A stretch of DNA of 5,905 bases from Candidatus Heimdallarchaeota archaeon (GTDB lineage: Archaea > Asgardarchaeota > Heimdallarchaeia > Heimdallarchaeales > Kariarchaeaceae): the NCBI GenBank assembly GCA_015522385.1, contig WAMJ01000036.1, positions 1 to 5,905 of the forward strand, given 5' to 3'. The translations under genes and the position numbers were made by a program. Shown piece after piece: positions 1-5,905 of this stretch. How positions within the stretch are numbered: position 1 is the first letter of the stretch; each line of letters opens with the position of its first letter. The notes under the pieces were generated by a model. The model searched no databases and was not told the origin of the DNA. It saw only the letters and a list, made by a program, of their open reading frames with translations.

Positions 1-125
1 TATAAAAAGTATAGACCAGACATACTGGAAAAATGATAGAATCATGACTGATTCTAGTCAGCTGTATGTGCTATCGGAGGGATTGTCGGTATTGTAAGAA
101 TTATTGAGAAGTTTTTCAGGAAATG
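1..125. other. Left contig edge, no assignable gene
   Basis: No gene can be assigned here. The plus-strand frame beginning at base 2 is open from the edge for 31 codons to a TAA at 95-97 (it ends ...YVLSEGLSVL), followed by a T5 run at 112-116 that could end a transcript. It may be the tail of a truncated gene converging on the cofilin gene. Competing readings are an 11-codon tail in frame 1 (YKKYRPDILEK, stop at 34-36) and a hydrophobic minus-strand start at 45 (MILSFFQYVW...) running off the edge. Thirty-one open codons is not improbable by chance, so I leave this undecided. Confidence 0.3.
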
Positions 126-560
126 TTAACCCATTTGCTGATAGTTAGCACCCTGACGAGCGGCCATCTTAGATTTGATTCGCTCTGCGGTAAGGCTACT
201 TTTTTCATCCTCCTGCAACTGCACACTGATACCGTTAAACTTGGTGTTGATCAGGCTTTTTGCTCCCGCATACTGCATCCTGAGTCGTACAGGGGATTCC
301 ATGGGCATCCAGAAGAGGAACAGCATCCTCGTGTCGTCCAGTCCCACCCTGTTCTTCATAGGGAAGTCATAGAGAATGTACCTTGGCTCGTTGTCTGGGA
401 GCGATGCCACCATCTCCTCAAAAGGTTCGGTAGTGTGCTTTTCGAGGATGAGATTCTCCTCATCGATCTTGAGGATCATCCCCTGAGGCTTCTTCTCAAA
501 TCGCATCTCCTCATATTTCTTGATTAATTCTGGGTCGATATCTTGGCCACTTATACTCAT
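126..560 (-). CDS. ADF/cofilin-like actin-binding protein
   Basis: This 144-residue protein appears to be a complete single-domain ADF-H protein, the fold that binds G- and F-actin and severs or depolymerises filaments in eukaryotes. It matches cofilins in length (yeast cofilin 143 aa, recalled from memory) and in the order of landmarks. These are an N-terminal MSISG (eukaryotic MSxSG-type start with the regulatory serine), LPDNEPRYILYDF at 54-66 (yeast LPEND..YAIYDF), strand FLFW at 81-84, and the long actin-binding helix region SPVRLRMQYAGAKSL at 89-103. In that helix R92 and R94 line up with the actin-contacting R96/K98 of yeast cofilin. NGISVQLQ (109-116) and a C-terminal helix (about 122-134) follow. 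There is no nuclear-localisation insertion and no second domain, so it is not a gelsolin-type protein. The ATG at 560 is supported by AGGCGAT at 564-570. The gene is last on the minus strand, 241 nt after the glycosylase gene, with its own promoter. The natural partner would be an Asgard actin, which is not in this window. Family call from motif recall, not a database search. Confidence 0.9.
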   Translation of the reverse strand: MSISGQDIDPELIKKYEEMRFEKKPQGMILKIDEENLILEKHTTEPFEEMVASLPDNEPRYILYDFPMKNRVGLDDTRMLFLFWMPMESPVRLRMQYAGAKSLINTKFNGISVQLQEDEKSSLTAERIKSKMAARQGANYQQMG

Positions 561-563
561 GTA

Positions 564-570
564 ATCGCCT
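564..570 (-). promoter_or_regulatory. Shine-Dalgarno-like site of the cofilin gene
   Basis: On the minus strand this reads AGGCGAT, three bases before the ATG at 560. It matches the archaeal anti-SD complement AGGTGAT at six of seven positions. It supports the ATG at 560 as the start. Confidence 0.5.
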
Positions 571-577
571 ACACGTC

Positions 578-592
578 GGAGACTTCGTCTCC
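578..592. repeat. Perfect inverted repeat in the cofilin promoter/leader
   Basis: GGAGAC-TTC-GTCTCC is a perfect 6-bp inverted repeat with a 3-nt spacer. It lies between the TATA-like box (594-602) and the cofilin start codon (560). With archaeal spacing of about 26 bp from the TATA centre to the transcription start, the start would be near 574. The repeat would then sit in the promoter just downstream of TATA, where a dimeric repressor would block RNA polymerase. If transcription starts further upstream, it would instead form a 5'-leader hairpin. The repeat is seen; its role is inferred. Confidence 0.55.
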
Positions 593-593
593 T

Positions 594-602
594 CTTATAT
601 TA
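594..602 (-). promoter_or_regulatory. TATA box of the cofilin gene
   Basis: The minus strand reads TAATATAAG, a good archaeal TATA-box match, centred about 38-40 bp before the ATG at 560. It predicts a transcription start near 574 and a short leader of about 14 nt containing the SD-like site. It indicates that the cofilin gene can be transcribed separately from the upstream operon. Confidence 0.5.
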
Positions 603-674
603 GATTTTATTGCCGATAATTCTTAAGCTTTGCTCCAAGTAGAAAATTCTTTGAGAGGTATTAGACGTCATTTT

Positions 675-680
675 AAAAAA
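675..680 (-). terminator. Possible T-run terminator of the HAD-GT-UDG operon
   Basis: The minus strand carries a T6 run in an AT-rich context about 125 nt past the glycosylase stop. Archaeal intrinsic termination needs mainly oligo-T on the coding strand. A second T6 run (805-810) overlaps the end of the glycosylase gene and is an alternative. No stable stem precedes either run. Confidence 0.25.
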
Positions 681-801
681 TATTTCAGATTGAAAATACG
701 TCCCTAGAGAAGATGTGAATAGATCCTACGAGTTATCGAAATTTTCCTGTATGACAAACCCCCCCGAGCCAAAACCCTACTCTGGTCAAAATCTCCGCAC
801 T

Positions 802-1392
802 TTAGAAAAAATCGTCCAGATTCAACTGTCCCTTTCCTTTGGGGGGTGAGGTCAAGTACTGATTTAGTACTCCAAAGTACTCCCGGTACGTCTCTATGAG
901 GTTCATGTTCCGCAGGATATATGCCGGATGGAAAAGTGGTAAAATCGGGAACTCTTTGTAGTCTTGTACTATCCCCGCTACCTTAGTTATCCTCGCATGG
1001 GGTAAGAAGAAGTTGAGAGCAACCCTTCCGAGGGTCACCACGATCTTAGGGTGCAGTCCGTCTAGCTGTGGATTAAGCCAGTACGAGCTGCAGACTGCAA
1101 TCTCATCCATGGTGGGATCCCTATTCTCAGGAGGACGGCACTTCACAATGTTGAGAATAGATACCTGAGAGCGTTCCAGCCCGATCTCACTGAGCATTTT
1201 ATCAAGAAGTTTTCCACTCCTACCTACAAATGGCTCACCCCGGAGGTCCTCCTCACGACCTGGGGCTTCCCCGATAAAACAGATATCTCCTTCCCCAGAC
1301 ACAATTCCAGGAACGACCTGCGTCCTACTTCGGGAAAGTGGACAAAGGGAGCAGTTCTTCATCTTTGAATTAAGGAGATCAAACTTATCCAT
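802..1392 (-). CDS. udg: Type-4 (Fe-S) uracil-DNA glycosylase with C-terminal PIP box
   Basis: The enzyme removes uracil from DNA after cytosine deamination, starting base excision repair. From the ATG at 1392 it is 196 aa, typical of family 4. Four cysteines fit the [4Fe-4S] ligand pattern: C14 and C17 (CSLC), C85 (KCRPPENR, 84-91) and C101. The active-site motif GEAPGREEDLRGEPFVG spans 41-57, and HPAYIL (155-160) is the second catalytic-loop motif. The last eight residues, QLNLDDFF (189-196), fit the PCNA-interacting consensus Q-x-x-[ILM]-x-x-aromatic-aromatic and follow a flexible PPKGKG linker. An in-frame GTG at 1401 would add three residues and overlap the preceding glycosyltransferase gene by 7 nt. 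I prefer the ATG at 1392 because GGAG (1401-1404) lies 8 nt before it. This is the third gene of the minus-strand operon, and the coupling to the glycosyltransferase is very tight. Confidence 0.95.
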   Translation of the reverse strand: MDKFDLLNSKMKNCSLCPLSRSRTQVVPGIVSGEGDICFIGEAPGREEDLRGEPFVGRSGKLLDKMLSEIGLERSQVSILNIVKCRPPENRDPTMDEIAVCSSYWLNPQLDGLHPKIVVTLGRVALNFFLPHARITKVAGIVQDYKEFPILPLFHPAYILRNMNLIETYREYFGVLNQYLTSPPKGKGQLNLDDFF

Positions 1393-1394
1393 CT

Positions 1395-2432
1395 CTACCA
1401 CTCCATGACAGAGTAGAGATATCCGGTAAAGTCAGAGACAGGAGTCCCCTTGTACTCTGCTGTCTTGAAGTATACATCGGGTTTACCAAGAAAATTCTGC
1501 AGAGCACCGACCGAGAACTCTTCACTGGTCGTTGCCAGTTTCAGCTTTTCCAGACGGTAGGCGTTGGTCGCCTGCTCAAATTGGTTCTTGATTGGAATAA
1601 CATGGAGGGGTTTGTCCACGAGGATGGCCTCCCACGTGACCGAAAAACCAGCATTAGAGATGATACCCTTGCTGCTGGTGAAATCCATGAGGAAACCTGA
1701 CCGAGAGGTCGGTTTGAGCTCTACATTCCCGATTTTCTCAGATTTATTGTACCCGTAAACAATGAAGTTGTCATCAGGGAAGTTCTTTAGCACTCTCCTA
1801 AGGTATTTCTCCCTCAATCGCTTCACATAGATCACGTAGTGGTCTCCAGAATAGATATCATGGTCATCAAACTCCTCTTTCCACAGGAGGGGGTAGATAG
1901 TCCAGATTCGCTCGTTCCTCAACTCCTTGACGTAATCAATAGCTATGTAGTGATCTGCTATGGGAACAGTGACCTTAAGAGTCAGATCCATAATAAAATG
2001 ATTGAGGGAGTATCCGGGAATCGTTAATGAGAGGTTTGATCTGACAGAGTGCTGGTGATCTAGAGAGAGGAGAGGGACCTCGGATATCATTCCAACGTAG
2101 GACACAAGTGGGGCGAAGTCGGAGATAACCAGATCAAACTTCTCCCTTTTCAGGCGTCTAACAAGATCTATTATTATACGGGCAATATATCTTGAATTCA
2201 TGAAGCTCTTCGAGATCGTGCTAAAGAAGGTGAGTTGGTGCTCTTGGTAAACGAGCTCAAAACCATTTATCCACGTGTAGGTCTTAGCCATGGAGTATGC
2301 ATATCTTGGAGGCTTAGGGCCATCAAACACAATATGAATGTCGTGCCCCTCCTCTATGAGTTGCTTCATGATTGTTCTGGAACGATTTATGTGTCCTTGC
2401 CCATTTGTATTAATTCCGTAGAGTATCTTCAT
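1395..2432 (-). CDS. GT-B glycosyltransferase, MJ1255-like family
   Basis: This 345-aa protein resembles GT-B fold (MurG/UDP-glycosyltransferase-like) enzymes of the archaeal MJ1255 type. It probably moves a sugar from a nucleotide donor to a lipid or glycan in the cytoplasm or at the inner membrane face. The N-terminal Rossmann half opens with ILYGINTNGQGHINRS (3-18), the Gly-rich loop with the GH pair, and holds FDLVISDFAPLVSY (99-112). The C-terminal donor half has ISNAGFSVTWEAILVDKPL (258-276) and IPIKNQFEQATNA (279-291), the usual Gly/Glu and E-Q donor-binding signature. No membrane segment is seen. An in-frame TGA directly abuts the ATG at 2432, fixing the start; GGGAG (2440-2444) lies 7 nt before it. 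It follows the HAD gene by 52 nt and nearly touches the glycosylase gene. Donor and acceptor cannot be read from the sequence. Confidence 0.85.
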   Translation of the reverse strand: MKILYGINTNGQGHINRSRTIMKQLIEEGHDIHIVFDGPKPPRYAYSMAKTYTWINGFELVYQEHQLTFFSTISKSFMNSRYIARIIIDLVRRLKREKFDLVISDFAPLVSYVGMISEVPLLSLDHQHSVRSNLSLTIPGYSLNHFIMDLTLKVTVPIADHYIAIDYVKELRNERIWTIYPLLWKEEFDDHDIYSGDHYVIYVKRLREKYLRRVLKNFPDDNFIVYGYNKSEKIGNVELKPTSRSGFLMDFTSSKGIISNAGFSVTWEAILVDKPLHVIPIKNQFEQATNAYRLEKLKLATTSEEFSVGALQNFLGKPDVYFKTAEYKGTPVSDFTGYLYSVMEW

Positions 2433-2439
2433 TCAGCAA

Positions 2440-2444
2440 CTCCC
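2440..2444 (-). promoter_or_regulatory. Shine-Dalgarno site of the glycosyltransferase gene
   Basis: GGGAG on the minus strand, 7 nt before the ATG at 2432. Together with the TGA (2433-2435) immediately in front of the ATG it fixes the translation start. A GATAAAAG TATA-like stretch upstream (about 2467-2474) could act as a weak internal promoter. Confidence 0.5.
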
Positions 2445-2484
2445 TTTGCTCAATTTCATCCTGAGGCTTTTATCCATTTAGGTC

Positions 2485-3174
2485 TCACCTGAGATCAGAG
2501 AAAACCTTGGATAACTCTTCGTGGTCTGAAACGACGATATCGGGATTCTGCTCAAGTATCAAGGACTCGGTGAACTTCGCATATTGACCGAGGAAGGCAA
2601 TGGTTTTGCAACCAGCCACTCTTCCCGAGATGACATCAACTGTAAGATCACCAATGTACAGGGTGTCCTTGACGTCAACACCGAGTTTCTCGCAGGCAAT
2701 ACGGATAGGTTGTGGATCGGGTTTCGGACGGTCGACATCATCATCTGTGACCACCACCTCTATTTCCCGGAGTATGGGGATCTGTTCCATAGCGGAATTT
2801 ACTGCCTTGCGCGATGCACTGGTCACGACTGCTACTTTGGTGTTGTCTAAGGCCCAACGGATGTTCTTCTCCGCACCATCAATCAACTCGAATGTGTACT
2901 TTGACCGATTGTAGTTCCTGATGGCCCGCGCGAGGAATCTGACGTTCTTGAAGAAGTTGAGATTAACACTTACCCCAATGCTCCATACAATCTTTAGAAC
3001 CTTGAACTTGCTCTTGGCCCCGATGTTCCCGAGAAGCTCACGAAGTGGTTCCCCCACGGCCTCATCCTCAGGTCTTCTCCCTAGTTCTACCTCAAGTGCT
3101 TGGGCAATAGGCTCGACGAGCCTGACATCCATTCGAGCGAGAGTGCCGTCTAGGTCAAAGAGTATGGCCTTCAA
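2485..3174 (-). CDS. HAD-superfamily hydrolase, phosphoglycolate phosphatase-like
   Basis: A 229-aa cytoplasmic HAD phosphatase. All four motifs are present: motif I DLDGT (7-11; nucleophile D7, acid/base D9), motif II VVTSAS (116-121; S119), motif III lysine in RPKPDP (K151 within 149-154), and motif IV YIGDLTVDV (173-181; D176 and D180 for Mg2+). The insert between motifs I and II (about 15-95) is a helical cap of the C1 type, as in the phosphoglycolate phosphatase/PGMB group. Substrate cannot be set from sequence; phosphoglycolate or a sugar phosphate are both reasonable. The start is TTG at 3174. An in-frame TGA lies six codons upstream and motif I begins at residue 7, so no other start fits. 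AGGT (3181-3184) lies 6 nt before it. First gene of the minus-strand operon, divergent from the pilus genes. Confidence 0.9.
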   Translation of the reverse strand: MKAILFDLDGTLARMDVRLVEPIAQALEVELGRRPEDEAVGEPLRELLGNIGAKSKFKVLKIVWSIGVSVNLNFFKNVRFLARAIRNYNRSKYTFELIDGAEKNIRWALDNTKVAVVTSASRKAVNSAMEQIPILREIEVVVTDDDVDRPKPDPQPIRIACEKLGVDVKDTLYIGDLTVDVISGRVAGCKTIAFLGQYAKFTESLILEQNPDIVVSDHEELSKVFSDLR

Positions 3175-3363
3175 TAGGCTACCTGTATTTCATGAATATA
3201 AAAATCTCGATTTCCGTATCTATAAAAATAACTCAGTGGCTGGATCCTACTTGTTCGAACCTCATCCACACCATATCGGACTTAACCAAGGATCAATGAC
3301 ACCTCTACTAACTCCCCAAATAGTTACTTTGTATTTGCGGGGATTTATGTACCCAACTCTTGT
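3175..3363. promoter_or_regulatory. Divergent promoter region between HAD operon and tadA
   Basis: This 189-nt AT-rich spacer separates two divergent transcription units. The 9-mer TATAAAAAT occurs twice (3197-3205 and 3221-3229), 24 bp apart. On the minus strand both read as ATTTTTATA TATA-like boxes. The proximal copy would start transcription at about the TTG (3174), nearly leaderless. The distal copy would start it near 3197, leaving room for the AGGT Shine-Dalgarno site. For the plus strand, TTTATGTA at 3344-3351 lies about 20 bp before the GTG at 3364 and could give a leaderless tadA transcript; the TATAAAAAT copies could give a long leader. An 8-bp palindrome, GTTCGAAC, sits at 3253-3260. 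Box assignments are inferred from spacing. Confidence 0.5.
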
Positions 3364-4548
3364 GTGAACACTGTGGAAAGTAAGTTCCTCAGGTCGGAGC
3401 TCTCTCCGACAACCCCACTCCAGACACTAAACATTGAGCTGGACCTGCCCTCAAATTGGGAGGGGATAATCGTCAAGGCTAGATCTCTCTATCTTTCACA
3501 AAGGAGGGAAGAGATGCGTCCTCGGAATCTCAACGAGACGCTTCAGGCCGTGGAGCAGATCATACAGCTCGAAGTCCCCGAAGTGCCAGATGAGTTGGTA
3601 CCAGCTGTTGGGTGGAACACTGTTGGACTCATGGAGATTTACGTCCTCCTTCTAGACCCAGAGGTAAGCGAGATCATGGCTTCTAACCTAGGACTACCCC
3701 TCGTCATCACGCACAGGGTACACGGCCGTTGCAAGACTAATATCCTCTTCACAGAAGAGCTCTGGAAATCATTGAAATCACGTGCGGAGTTCGATACAGG
3801 AGAGACCCTCTCCCCGATATCCCCAGCTCTTAAAGCAGGATTCGAGACCGAAATCGGGTCGATCAGGGTGTCCATGCAGATGCCCCCTTTGGCTGTTGAC
3901 GGACCCGCGTTCTCCATCCGAAGGTTACCCGTAGTTACAATCAGCATGGAGAGGTTAATCCGTGACGAGCAGGTGACCAAAGGGCAAGCGGAGTACCTGC
4001 TGGAAAAGGTCACCAGCAGGGCCAACATCGTCATTGCAGGTGAGCCGGGATCAGGGAAAACCACACTGGCCAATGCCCTTCTCATGGAGACCGACCCCAC
4101 GTGGAGGCTGATCATAATAGAGGACGCAAAGGAAGTGAGATTCGACAATGAGAGGTTTCCACTGCTGACAAGGTTCTCGATGCCCTCAGTGGGATCGGAC
4201 AAACGTTACGCCCAGAGAGCAAACGAGATTGCACGTCTTCTTCATCGCTCACCCGACTATGTCTTCCTCGGTGAGATCCAGAACAAAGAGGACACTGTTG
4301 CTGCCATGGAGGCTTTTGCAGCTGGGATCAGGGGGATGGCGACCACCCATGGGCATAACCTTGACGGGCTCCTTGCCCGTTGGGAACTCTCACATGGGAT
4401 GAGCCATGACCTTCTGCAGGTGATTGACATAGTGGTGATCACTAAGCGGAGAATCGTTGATGGCAGGAGTGAGTTACGGGTTGAGGGGATATATTCCCTC
4501 GTCCTTAAGGACGGTAGGTTCAACGGGTTCGAGCAGGTGGAAGTATGA
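3364..4548 (+). CDS. tadA: TadA/GspE-type secretion ATPase (archaeal type IV pilus motor)
   Basis: A 394-aa hexameric-type ATPase of the VirB11/GspE/TadA family that would power pilus assembly at the cytoplasmic membrane face. The N-terminal domain includes LLLDPEVSEIMASN (95-108), the family's 'plL.D..v.EIM.n' motif. The C-terminal domain has Walker A GEPGSGKTT (226-234), the Asp box IIIEDAKEVRF (250-260), a Walker B-like PDYVFLGEIQNKED (297-310; E304) and a His box GMATTHGHNLDGLLARW (324-340; H329). The usual Arg after GE[VI] is Gln (Q306), a mild divergence. It overlaps the downstream T2SF gene by 4 nt (ATGA), the classical motor-platform pairing. The start is uncertain. GTG at 3364 (or GTG at 3373) lacks a Shine-Dalgarno site but follows a TATA-like box. 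An internal ATG at 3514 has a perfect AAGGAGG (3501-3507) 6 nt before it and would give 344 aa. I kept the long form because codons 1-50 read as plausible protein. FlaI-type function is less likely because no other archaellum genes are seen. Confidence 0.9.
   Translation: MNTVESKFLRSELSPTTPLQTLNIELDLPSNWEGIIVKARSLYLSQRREEMRPRNLNETLQAVEQIIQLEVPEVPDELVPAVGWNTVGLMEIYVLLLDPEVSEIMASNLGLPLVITHRVHGRCKTNILFTEELWKSLKSRAEFDTGETLSPISPALKAGFETEIGSIRVSMQMPPLAVDGPAFSIRRLPVVTISMERLIRDEQVTKGQAEYLLEKVTSRANIVIAGEPGSGKTTLANALLMETDPTWRLIIIEDAKEVRFDNERFPLLTRFSMPSVGSDKRYAQRANEIARLLHRSPDYVFLGEIQNKEDTVAAMEAFAAGIRGMATTHGHNLDGLLARWELSHGMSHDLLQVIDIVVITKRRIVDGRSELRVEGIYSLVLKDGRFNGFEQVEV
4535..4540 (+). promoter_or_regulatory. 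Shine-Dalgarno site of the T2SF gene inside tadA
   Basis: AGGTGG sits 4 nt before the ATG at 4545, within the last codons of tadA. With the ATGA stop/start overlap it suggests translational coupling of the two genes. Confidence 0.5.
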
Positions 4549-5660
4549 TCGATAGGACGATCACACCATTTATCGCAGCCACGTCGGGGATAGTCATGAT
4601 CTCCGTCGTCACAGCATTTTTTACAGGTGGAATAACACCAATCTACCTTCTTCTGTGGCTTGTGTCAGTCGTTCTTCACCAAGCAGTCCTCGGGATGCAA
4701 CTGATCAAGCACAAAGAGCTAGCGCGAAATCGGGCGAGGTGGCTGAAAGCAATGCTTCTCCGAGACGTAGCGAGTACACCCGAGTTCGAGCACTACGTCG
4801 GTTCTATCACGGGGATCAGCAGTGACTTCATAACAAGAGAGCTGGGGATGGAGCAAAATATTGACATCGTGCGCAATCTCCCACCGGACGTCTCCACTGC
4901 CGAAGAGGAGCTTGTGAAACTGGAGGAGAGGAGCTCGGTAGTCCTTACGGCTGCAGTCTTCATACCAGTCGTCTTCTCCCTCGCCCACATGTTCCGGTAT
5001 GTAGAAGCACCAGTTGTTATCATCGAAATCGTCACAGCTCTCACCGTAATTCAGTCTCTCGCCCTATTCTACAACAAGGCCATCAGGTTAGAGGGGTGGA
5101 GGGAGGCCCTGATGGAATTCGGGAAGATGCGTGAGGAGCTCATAAGCGGAGGCAGGCAAGCACTCACCCGAATCCCCAACTATTTCAAGAACATCCAGAA
5201 CCTCGAACTTGGCAACGATATAGATGTGGCTGATGTCAAACCGTCACGGTCTGCCATAGCCAGTGTGGCACTGATCATCGGACAACTCCCGAATGGAGAG
5301 AGACCCAAGGTGATCGACCGTTTCATCAGAAGCACCGAATCCATGCCGACCAAGGAGGAGCTCATGGAGGTGAGGTGGAAGGCCCTGAACGGGAGAGCGC
5401 TTCTCATCACAACCATAGGAGTGGCCATCACCGGTTTGTTCGCGGGAATCGCGAGCTACAGCTTCCCAAGGATCTTCGAGCAAATCCAAGTCATAAGACC
5501 AACACCGTATCTCAGCATCTTCCTCTTCATCCTCGTTGTTCCCTCCTCGTTGATTATCACACAGTCATGGCTGGACAGGGGACGCCAGTATAGATGGTCC
5601 GTCATATGGAGCACGGTCTACTGGATGGTGTACCTGTCAGTCCAGATCTTCGTCTACTAA
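4545..5660 (+). CDS. tadC: TadC/T2SF-family pilus platform membrane protein
   Basis: A 371-aa polytopic membrane protein of the type II secretion F / TadC kind, the membrane platform on which the ATPase acts to insert pilin subunits. About seven hydrophobic segments can be seen: roughly 8-27, 31-50, 132-149, 155-176, 285-306, 320-340 and 351-370. Two large soluble loops (about 55-130 and 178-284) are rich in charged residues, as expected for cytoplasmic T2SF domains. It is shorter than archaellar FlaJ/ArlJ proteins (around 550 aa with duplicated domains), matching the shorter TadC-like form. The start ATG overlaps the stop of the ATPase gene (ATGA), with an AGGTGG site before it. Sequence motifs in this family are weak, so the call rests on topology, length and its coupling to the ATPase. 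No pilin or prepilin peptidase gene follows before the contig ends. Confidence 0.8.
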   Translation: MIDRTITPFIAATSGIVMISVVTAFFTGGITPIYLLLWLVSVVLHQAVLGMQLIKHKELARNRARWLKAMLLRDVASTPEFEHYVGSITGISSDFITRELGMEQNIDIVRNLPPDVSTAEEELVKLEERSSVVLTAAVFIPVVFSLAHMFRYVEAPVVIIEIVTALTVIQSLALFYNKAIRLEGWREALMEFGKMREELISGGRQALTRIPNYFKNIQNLELGNDIDVADVKPSRSAIASVALIIGQLPNGERPKVIDRFIRSTESMPTKEELMEVRWKALNGRALLITTIGVAITGLFAGIASYSFPRIFEQIQVIRPTPYLSIFLFILVVPSSLIITQSWLDRGRQYRWSVIWSTVYWMVYLSVQIFVY

Positions 5661-5707
5661 TACCCCATAGAAAAATAACTCATGCATGAATATTTTGAAG
5701 ATATTAT
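5661..5707. terminator. Short convergent spacer, possible bidirectional terminator
   Basis: These 47 nt separate tadC from a convergent minus-strand ORF. They are AT-rich, with a short AATAT/ATATT inverted repeat around 5689-5707 and a T5 run on the minus strand (A5 at about 5672-5676). This suits transcription stop from either side but is weak as a defined terminator. Confidence 0.25.
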
Positions 5708-5884
5708 TTAATCAAAACTATTGCTTTTACGCAATTTATACGCAGATATAAGCTCTACTACCCCCATGGCATAATGGATTGGTTGTAGGAAGTGAAAACC
5801 AATTAACATTATCTGGATGGTTAACCATGCAAACAACGTAATCCCCATGAAAAGACCATAAAGTGCTGCCTTCCTGTATTCCAT
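5708..5884 (-). CDS. Small or truncated membrane protein at contig end
   Basis: A minus-strand frame runs from the contig edge to a TAA at 5708-5710. Its first ATG is at 5884, giving 58 residues. The peptide starts MEYRKAALYG and ends AYKLRKSNSFD. It has one clear hydrophobic segment (about 7-32), a second shorter one (about 35-48) and a basic tail, as in a small integral membrane protein. Only five genomic bases remain between the ATG and the adapter, and the frame is open through them. The ATG could therefore be the true start or an internal Met of a longer truncated gene. Family not recognised. It converges on tadC, so it need not be part of the pilus operon. Confidence 0.5.
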   Translation of the reverse strand: MEYRKAALYGLFMGITLFAWLTIQIMLIGFHFLQPIHYAMGVVELISAYKLRKSNSFD

Positions 5885-5889
5885 TAGAG

Positions 5890-5905
5890 CTGTCTCTTAT
5901 ACACA
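5890..5905. other. Residual Tn5 mosaic-end (Nextera) adapter sequence
   Basis: The last 16 bases, CTGTCTCTTATACACA, match exactly the first 16 bases of the 19-bp Tn5 mosaic end CTGTCTCTTATACACATCT used in tagmentation libraries. A match this long at the exact end of a sequence is best explained by untrimmed adapter read-through, not by a genomic Tn5 copy. Genomic sequence therefore ends at about 5889. Any translation reaching past that point is artificial. Confidence 0.95.

Follow-up and report, generated by a model that had tools for sequence, protein, structure and literature searches.

A stand-alone ADF/cofilin gene in a Heimdallarchaeia archaeon and its counterparts in another Asgard class

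A 5,905-nucleotide stretch of DNA from a Candidatus Heimdallarchaeota archaeon (contig WAMJ01000036.1 of assembly GCA_015522385.1, positions 1 to 5,905; hereafter, the window) carries on its minus strand, at positions 126 to 560, an ATG-initiated gene for a protein of 144 amino acids (aa), which is a genuine archaeal ADF/cofilin by family (PF00241) and predicted fold (ADF-H). We consider it likely that the host belongs to the Heimdallarchaeia, where its place is probably within or close to a family called Kariarchaeaceae in one source, and that the protein works like the ADF/cofilins of eukaryotes. Family, fold, conservation at key positions, the archaeal residence of the relatives, and the co-occurrence of actin and gelsolin genes with most of the relatives searched were established computationally. 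An earlier, sequence-only reading had proposed a stand-alone ADF/cofilin at this place; beyond it, we find the gene in nearly all genomes of one family, and distant counterparts of it in a second class of Asgard archaea.

Profile searches with the window protein recovered PF00241 (Cofilin_ADF) as its sole significant Pfam family (88.8 bits, the cut-off being 22.4; E = 2.9e-25), the match spanning profile positions 2 to 125 of 125 and residues 13 to 131 of 144; that is, a single ADF-H domain makes up nearly the whole protein. This bears out the proposed gene, the ATG frame of which lies exactly at 126 to 560, and the landmarks listed for it (MSISG, LPDN, YILYDF, FLFW, SPVRLRMQYA, and NGISVQ) are all in the translation, most of them recurring in relatives. 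A further claim, that its length is near-identical to that of eukaryotic cofilins, holds for the fungal and plant proteins (137 to 143 aa) and fails for human cofilin-1 (166 aa). In the profile comparison suggested at the same time, no gelsolin family, including PF00626, matched at E<=1 in Pfam, and identity as a gelsolin was rejected on this result; no NCBIfam model matched at E<=0.001. Identity as a twinfilin, which shares the ADF-H fold, was likewise rejected: the 144 aa hold one ADF-H stretch, versus two domains in twinfilin-1. The ProGel and 2DGel proteins of Asgard archaea (Thor, Loki, and Heim) are actin regulators too, ProGel being what we take to be a gelsolin-type sequence, whereas PF00241, rather than any gelsolin model, is what the window protein matches. 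Among 5.8 billion proteins, 31 candidate relatives were found, 22 of them at E<=1, and a chance match is excluded because PF00241 is present in all 22. The best solved structures by sequence were actophorin (E = 8.1e-17) and fission-yeast cofilin (3.5e-16, improving to 1.8e-23 when the search used a profile built from our 23-row alignment A1), followed by a cofilin labelled Streptomyces griseoflavus (PDB code 5ivu); judged by molecule names only, no Asgard-named protein occurs among the solved-structure matches listed. An AlphaFold2 model of the protein alone (mean pLDDT, 88.2; pTM, 0.82) adopts the ADF-H fold, rather than the unlike fold that would have spoken against the proposal.

The longest contigs with relatives measure 1.13 Mb (P0004), 977 kb (P0011), 669 kb (P0009), and 631 kb (P0010); other database relatives are labelled Candidatus Kariarchaeaceae archaeon (P0017) and Methanobacteriota archaeon (P0007), and one record (P0022) is already named cofilin. 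When the GTDB species genomes were scanned with a sequence pattern, 60 stretches matched, and eight of these encode relatives at 48 to 69% identity in contigs of archaeal metagenome-assembled genomes (MAGs), seven recorded as Candidatus Heimdallarchaeota and one as archaeon. One such relative (L003), 64% identical to the window cofilin, lies inside the above 669-kb contig, recorded as Candidatus Heimdallarchaeota, of genome G003. Around this genome, PF00241 was found in seven of the eight genomes of its family (the eighth genome being 1.4 Mb), in 11/35 of its order, 11/58 of its class, and 12/227 of its phylum. The window gene at 4545 to 5660 (see below) has matches (E<=0.001) in six of the 227 genomes: G006, G038, and G003 at E values of 4e-55 to 3e-50, G040 at 3e-14 with one internal stop, and G026 and G028 weakly with two stops. 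The four best of these (G006, G038, G003, and G040) are cofilin-bearing members of the family, and the window is therefore tied to it. The window's glycosyltransferase supplies no such link, its 11 matches among these genomes (identity, 39% at most) including none in a cofilin-bearing genome. Purifying selection was seen in one close pair of relatives (L017 versus L018: dN, 0.048; dS, 1.44; ratio, about 0.03). Separately from its main cofilin, genome G004 has a partial PF00241 match (contig C98, positions 2840 to 2974; E = 3.3e-4) in a 287-aa frame, which appeared in the order- and class-level scans and was absent from the phylum-level scan.

Key residues were compared over 47 aligned rows, 25 of them of the Heimdall type (including the window protein), with yeast cofilin numbering as the reference; we take yeast R80, K82, R96, K98, K105, R109, R110, E134, R135, and R138 to be actin contacts. 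Long helix 3 of the window protein (residues 91 to 107; 240 to 290, minus strand, as are all parts of the gene) is the predicted main actin-binding face, with Arg92, Arg94, and Lys101: Arg92 (yeast R96) is R/K in 23/25 Heimdall-type rows, Arg94 (yeast K98) in 25/25, and Lys101 (yeast K105) is kept in every one. The residue at Arg78 (yeast K82) is basic in all 25 rows and that at Lys131 (yeast R135) in 20. At the N-terminus (MSISG; 546 to 560), Ser4, which stands before Gly, aligns with yeast Ser4 and lies near vertebrate Ser3; Ser or Thr occupies this position in 23 of the 25 rows. Vertebrate Ser3 is the LIM-kinase site (PMC8534876).

The window protein thus shares with eukaryotic ADF/cofilins (actophorin, yeast Cof1, and Schizosaccharomyces pombe cofilin) the single ADF-H domain, the fold, the S/T-G N-terminus, the basic pair of helix 3, Lys101, and a basic residue at Arg78. 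It differs in being archaeal, in sharing 20 to 27% identity with the 12 aligned cofilins, in having Asp for yeast Arg80, and in two signatures of the Asgard rows. The first, KNRxGLDDTR, is KNRVGLDDTR in the window (residues 69 to 78; 327 to 356) and ends in Arg78. The second is a conserved C-terminal tail, RQGxNYQQ or QGIN, which reads RQGANYQQ here (residues 135 to 142; 135 to 158) and lies outside the ADF-H core; its Gln136 and Gly137 do not vary among the 23 sequences of A1, whereas conservation is less strict in a wider alignment, A2. The last helix of the AlphaFold2 model (residues 125 to 143) extends into this tail at low confidence.

Actin genes are found in the same genomes, PF00022 (actin) matching in 10 of the 12 that bear a cofilin. 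In seven of them (G001 to G005, G040, and G227) the match reaches E<=1e-130; these seven actins are 61 to 65% identical to a eukaryotic actin (L012 across 239 columns only) and keep 8 or 9 of the 10 residues that we take to line the barbed-end cleft, in a comparison that left out both divergent actins of G007. All seven cofilin-bearing genomes searched for gelsolin have a tandem pair of gelsolin domains in one frame, in a gene separate from the cofilin; profilin (PF00235) had no match in seven genomes or in any control, and this negative therefore carries no weight. On contig C2 (669 kb) of the 3.3-Mb genome G003, the cofilin (L020), the two-domain gelsolin (L031), a TadC-like gene (L055), and the actin (L013) lie within about 67 kb (165.9 to 233.1 kb), perhaps a loose cytoskeletal region, noticed post hoc and in one genome. 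The closest solved structure of the G003 actin by sequence is PDB 9wc4_A, named HC1 actin (E = 2.8e-185); our literature search found no paper on HC1 actin with Heimdallarchaeia. Genome G227 has seven PF00022 matches on contigs C185, C97, C20, C43, and C187, one of them full-length (444.6 bits) and the others in long frames or fragments, including one under the cut-off; most other cofilin-bearing genomes have one.

A second type of Asgard cofilin was recovered from G227, which belongs to the same phylum as the window's relatives and to another class, of which it is the sole genome sampled. It has two PF00241 genes: L019 (93.3 bits; actophorin structure at E = 1.4e-23), with a eukaryote-like helix (SPDDAPIKLKM), and its paralogue L028 (76.3 bits). 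Among 12 candidates, L019 has three relatives at 91 to 98% identity; P0023 to P0025 are grouped with it. Both genes resemble that of the window in matching PF00241 and in the Asgard stretch, NRAGLE in their case, and differ from it in class and sequence, L019 being 33% and L028 30% identical to it. By eye, the frames flanking both look prokaryotic. L028 (contig C91; positions 1382 to 1888 of locus L058) is the second ADF-H protein of this genome, divergent and extended at its N-terminus by an acidic stretch; upstream of it, beyond an opposite-strand frame, positions 3 to 419 of L058 encode what by eye looks like a roadblock/LC7-like protein.

The phylogeny was examined in a full tree of 47 rows (25 of the Heimdall type, 4 of the G227 type, 12 cofilins, 2 GMF, 2 twinfilin domains, and 2 coactosins) and in a reduced tree of 41 rows without the coactosins, twinfilins, L028, and L025. 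Eukaryotes are thinly sampled in both: 7 of the 12 cofilins are fungal or 5ivu, which is labelled Streptomyces and was counted as fungal in the topology test, and Acanthamoeba is the sole protist. Five rows were drawn from the 120 listed of 3340 matches; P0001, P0003, P0004, P0013, P0019, P0025, the L007 cofilin, and L020, L021, L024, and L026, which duplicate P rows already included, were omitted, and L017 entered A2 and the trees without its initial Met. The sequence-only reading had named nesting inside one eukaryotic lineage as a sign of contamination, and the window protein is not nested in those sampled: of the starred sets of the 47-row tree, the smallest ones that include it consist of Heimdall-type rows only, and joining the Heimdall type with the seven fungal rows is rejected (P = 0.00264 in the approximately unbiased [AU] test). 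The Heimdall type as one side is rejected in neither tree (p-AU, 0.117 with 47 rows and 0.426 with 41); all Asgard rows as one side are borderline (0.0555, or 0.0541 without L028), and the Heimdall and G227 types together are not rejected with 41 rows (0.169). In the 41-row tree, the 12 cofilins fall on one side of a branch (100/99) and the G227 rows join them (100/98), with the Heimdall-type rows outside. GMF, on a very long branch (3.86), is weakly beside three Heimdall-type rows there (86/49), and its position is unstable between the trees.

A vertical origin of the Heimdall-type cofilin is possible on these trees. We tentatively entertain, while thinking it rather unlikely, a scheme in which Asgard archaea already possessed two lineages of ADF-H protein, one being the Heimdall type, near GMF in the trees, and the other the G227 type, sister to eukaryotic cofilins. 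An Asgard ancestor with dedicated actin-disassembly factors would then have passed cofilin, and perhaps GMF as well, on to eukaryotes; were it true, cofilin-driven actin turnover would be older than eukaryotes. The converse history, an ancient transfer into Heimdallarchaeia from a eukaryote or proto-eukaryote, draws on the patchy distribution of the gene over the phylum, on the borderline test for a single Asgard clade, and on the proposal of such transfers for patchy eukaryotic signature proteins (PMC12395588, where the word "cofilin" was not found). We regard it as unlikely, given that the gene is near-universal in one family, that the Heimdall type is not nested among the sampled eukaryotic cofilins, and that a different cofilin type occurs in another Asgard class.

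As to mode of action, we infer from family, fold, and conserved positions that the window protein binds and severs actin, with the native actin as its target, and actin disassembly appears to be its best-supported role. Helix 3, with Arg92 and Arg94, would dock together with the N-terminus into the cleft that lies between subdomains 1 and 3 at the barbed end of actin, and Arg78 and the C-terminal helix would contact the next subunit along the filament; binding would weaken the filament and lead to its severing or depolymerisation. With the two-domain gelsolin of its relatives, such archaea would possess two kinds of filament-disassembly protein. By analogy with Leishmania cofilin, which relies on an extended C-terminal helix to sever efficiently (PMC9200798), the C-terminal tail may serve severing.

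Several observations weigh against this proposal. Yeast R80 is replaced by Asp76 (Asp in 20 of the 25 Heimdall-type rows), and R109, R110, E134, and R138 by Asn, Thr, Ser, and Ala, although the R138 position is basic in 16/25 rows; the filament-side contacts therefore differ from those of yeast, K82 and R135 being kept as Arg78 and Lys131 and R80, E134, and R138 being replaced. The actin cleft is also bound by other actin binders, so its conservation is not specific to cofilin. PF00022 has no match in G006 and G037, the actin matches of G007, G013, and G038 are divergent or partial only, the G005 actin frame has one internal TAG, and many of the cofilin-bearing MAGs are fragmented. There is no conserved actin operon: a comparison at L001 to L008, which showed eight cofilin frames (the window and seven loci), found no relative of the window's other five genes among the frames there. 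Nine of ten neighbour proteins at the relatives' loci have Pfam matches (e.g., PIG-L, amidohydrolase, F420 ligase, TsaD, and radical SAM), without an actin-related family among these, and an actin operon around the cofilin was rejected on both grounds. Finally, three Heimdall-type rows of the full tree have GMF and twinfilin's second domain next to them (96/72).

A protein that binds actin mainly to sequester monomers or decorate filaments, with little severing, would accord with the loss of the filament-side residues at yeast R80, R109, R110, and R138 together with the conserved actin cleft in the relatives' genomes; this probably does not apply, the C-terminal helix being long and conserved at its end, and a C-terminal helix of extended length being what aids severing in the Leishmania protein (PMC9200798). 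Much less probable is a GMF-like action on branched or Arp2/3-like structures: the trees do not disfavour it, but the human GMF row has Glu and Gln at the positions of the basic pair (R96 and K98) of eukaryotic cofilins, which is Arg92/Arg94 in the window, and Pro at that of Arg78 (K82), so that identity as GMF is disfavoured by residues; in addition, the GMF branch is very long and the Heimdall rows together are not rejected. GMF acts on Arp2/3, and PDB 4jd2 is a GMF-Arp2/3 complex. That a eukaryotic cofilin was joined to archaeal DNA by contamination or chimeric assembly is highly improbable and was rejected. In its favour, cofilins under prokaryotic names do exist (5ivu, which groups with basidiomycete and Drosophila cofilin [99/97] in the 41-row tree, and P0028, which is labelled Streptomyces griseoflavus and contains the 5ivu stretch), the window ends in a Nextera-like adapter remnant, and its glycosyltransferase is unmatched in cofilin-bearing genomes, but the relatives reside on eight archaeal MAG contigs at intermediate identity, the gene is present throughout all but one genome of a family, grouping with fungi is rejected, and the frame is uninterrupted among compact prokaryotic-type genes. 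The placement of L003 within its 669-kb archaeal contig and the matches of the 4545 to 5660 gene to the cofilin-bearing family make a chimeric join in the window unlikely. The Streptomyces-labelled cofilin, a recent transfer or contamination, stands in contrast to the Asgard case.

Asgard archaea are known for actin, profilins, and gelsolin-type proteins, and ProGel is the only "cofilin" discussed in the literature searched. Thorarchaeota are described as holding distant cofilin and gelsolin homologues, with Asgard cofilin equated with ProGel and functional ProGel and 2DGel earlier shown only for Thor (PMC9433394); profilin and gelsolin homologues are named for Asgard archaea (PMC12050087). 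In PMC10307638, PMC12993045, PMC9834061, PMC10989744, and PMC9648965, "cofilin" was found solely in a reference-list entry, the title of the 2020 paper on ProGel. The literature searched, which did not cover supplements, preprints, and most subscription papers, yielded no account of a PF00241 protein in Asgard archaea, although a supplementary table may already mention one. If a true ADF/cofilin is carried by nearly all members of one family of Heimdallarchaeia, and a more eukaryote-like one by another Asgard class, then archaea already had the main factor by which eukaryotic cells disassemble actin. These small proteins are directly testable on Asgard and eukaryotic actin, and the origin of regulated actin turnover thereby becomes a bench question.

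Beside the cofilin gene, the window encodes, on the minus strand, a family-4 uracil-DNA glycosylase (UDG) of 199 aa (802 to 1401; TIGR00758, 171.2 bits against a cut-off of 125.3; PF03167), a glycosyltransferase in a gene overlapping that of the UDG (1395 to 2432; PF13528, 173.1 bits against a cut-off of 25; the MJ1255 model under its cut-off), and a HAD-type hydrolase (2485 to 3174; PF13419, 100.8 bits). On the plus strand follow a type II/IV secretion-type ATPase (3364 to 4548; PF00437, 62.4 bits) and a membrane-protein-like frame at the TadC position (4545 to 5660) without a family match. The archaeal-type neighbourhood with a type-4 UDG that had been read from the sequence is upheld, the UDG exceeding its NCBIfam cut-off and the neighbours being of prokaryotic type. 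The suggested linkage to Tad pilus genes is less secure: it depends on TadA and TrbB matches of the ATPase, and these stay under the NCBIfam cut-offs. Rfam gave nothing over threshold in the window. The last 16 bases (5890 to 5905) read CTGTCTCTTATACACA, with 0 occurrences expected by chance; they equal the Nextera transposase end, and the contig end looks like it carries an adapter remnant. At 578 to 592, 17 bases before the cofilin start codon, lies a perfect hairpin of 6 bp with a 3-base loop, which the scan scored, for the plus strand, as its one site resembling a terminator, versus 0.7 expected.
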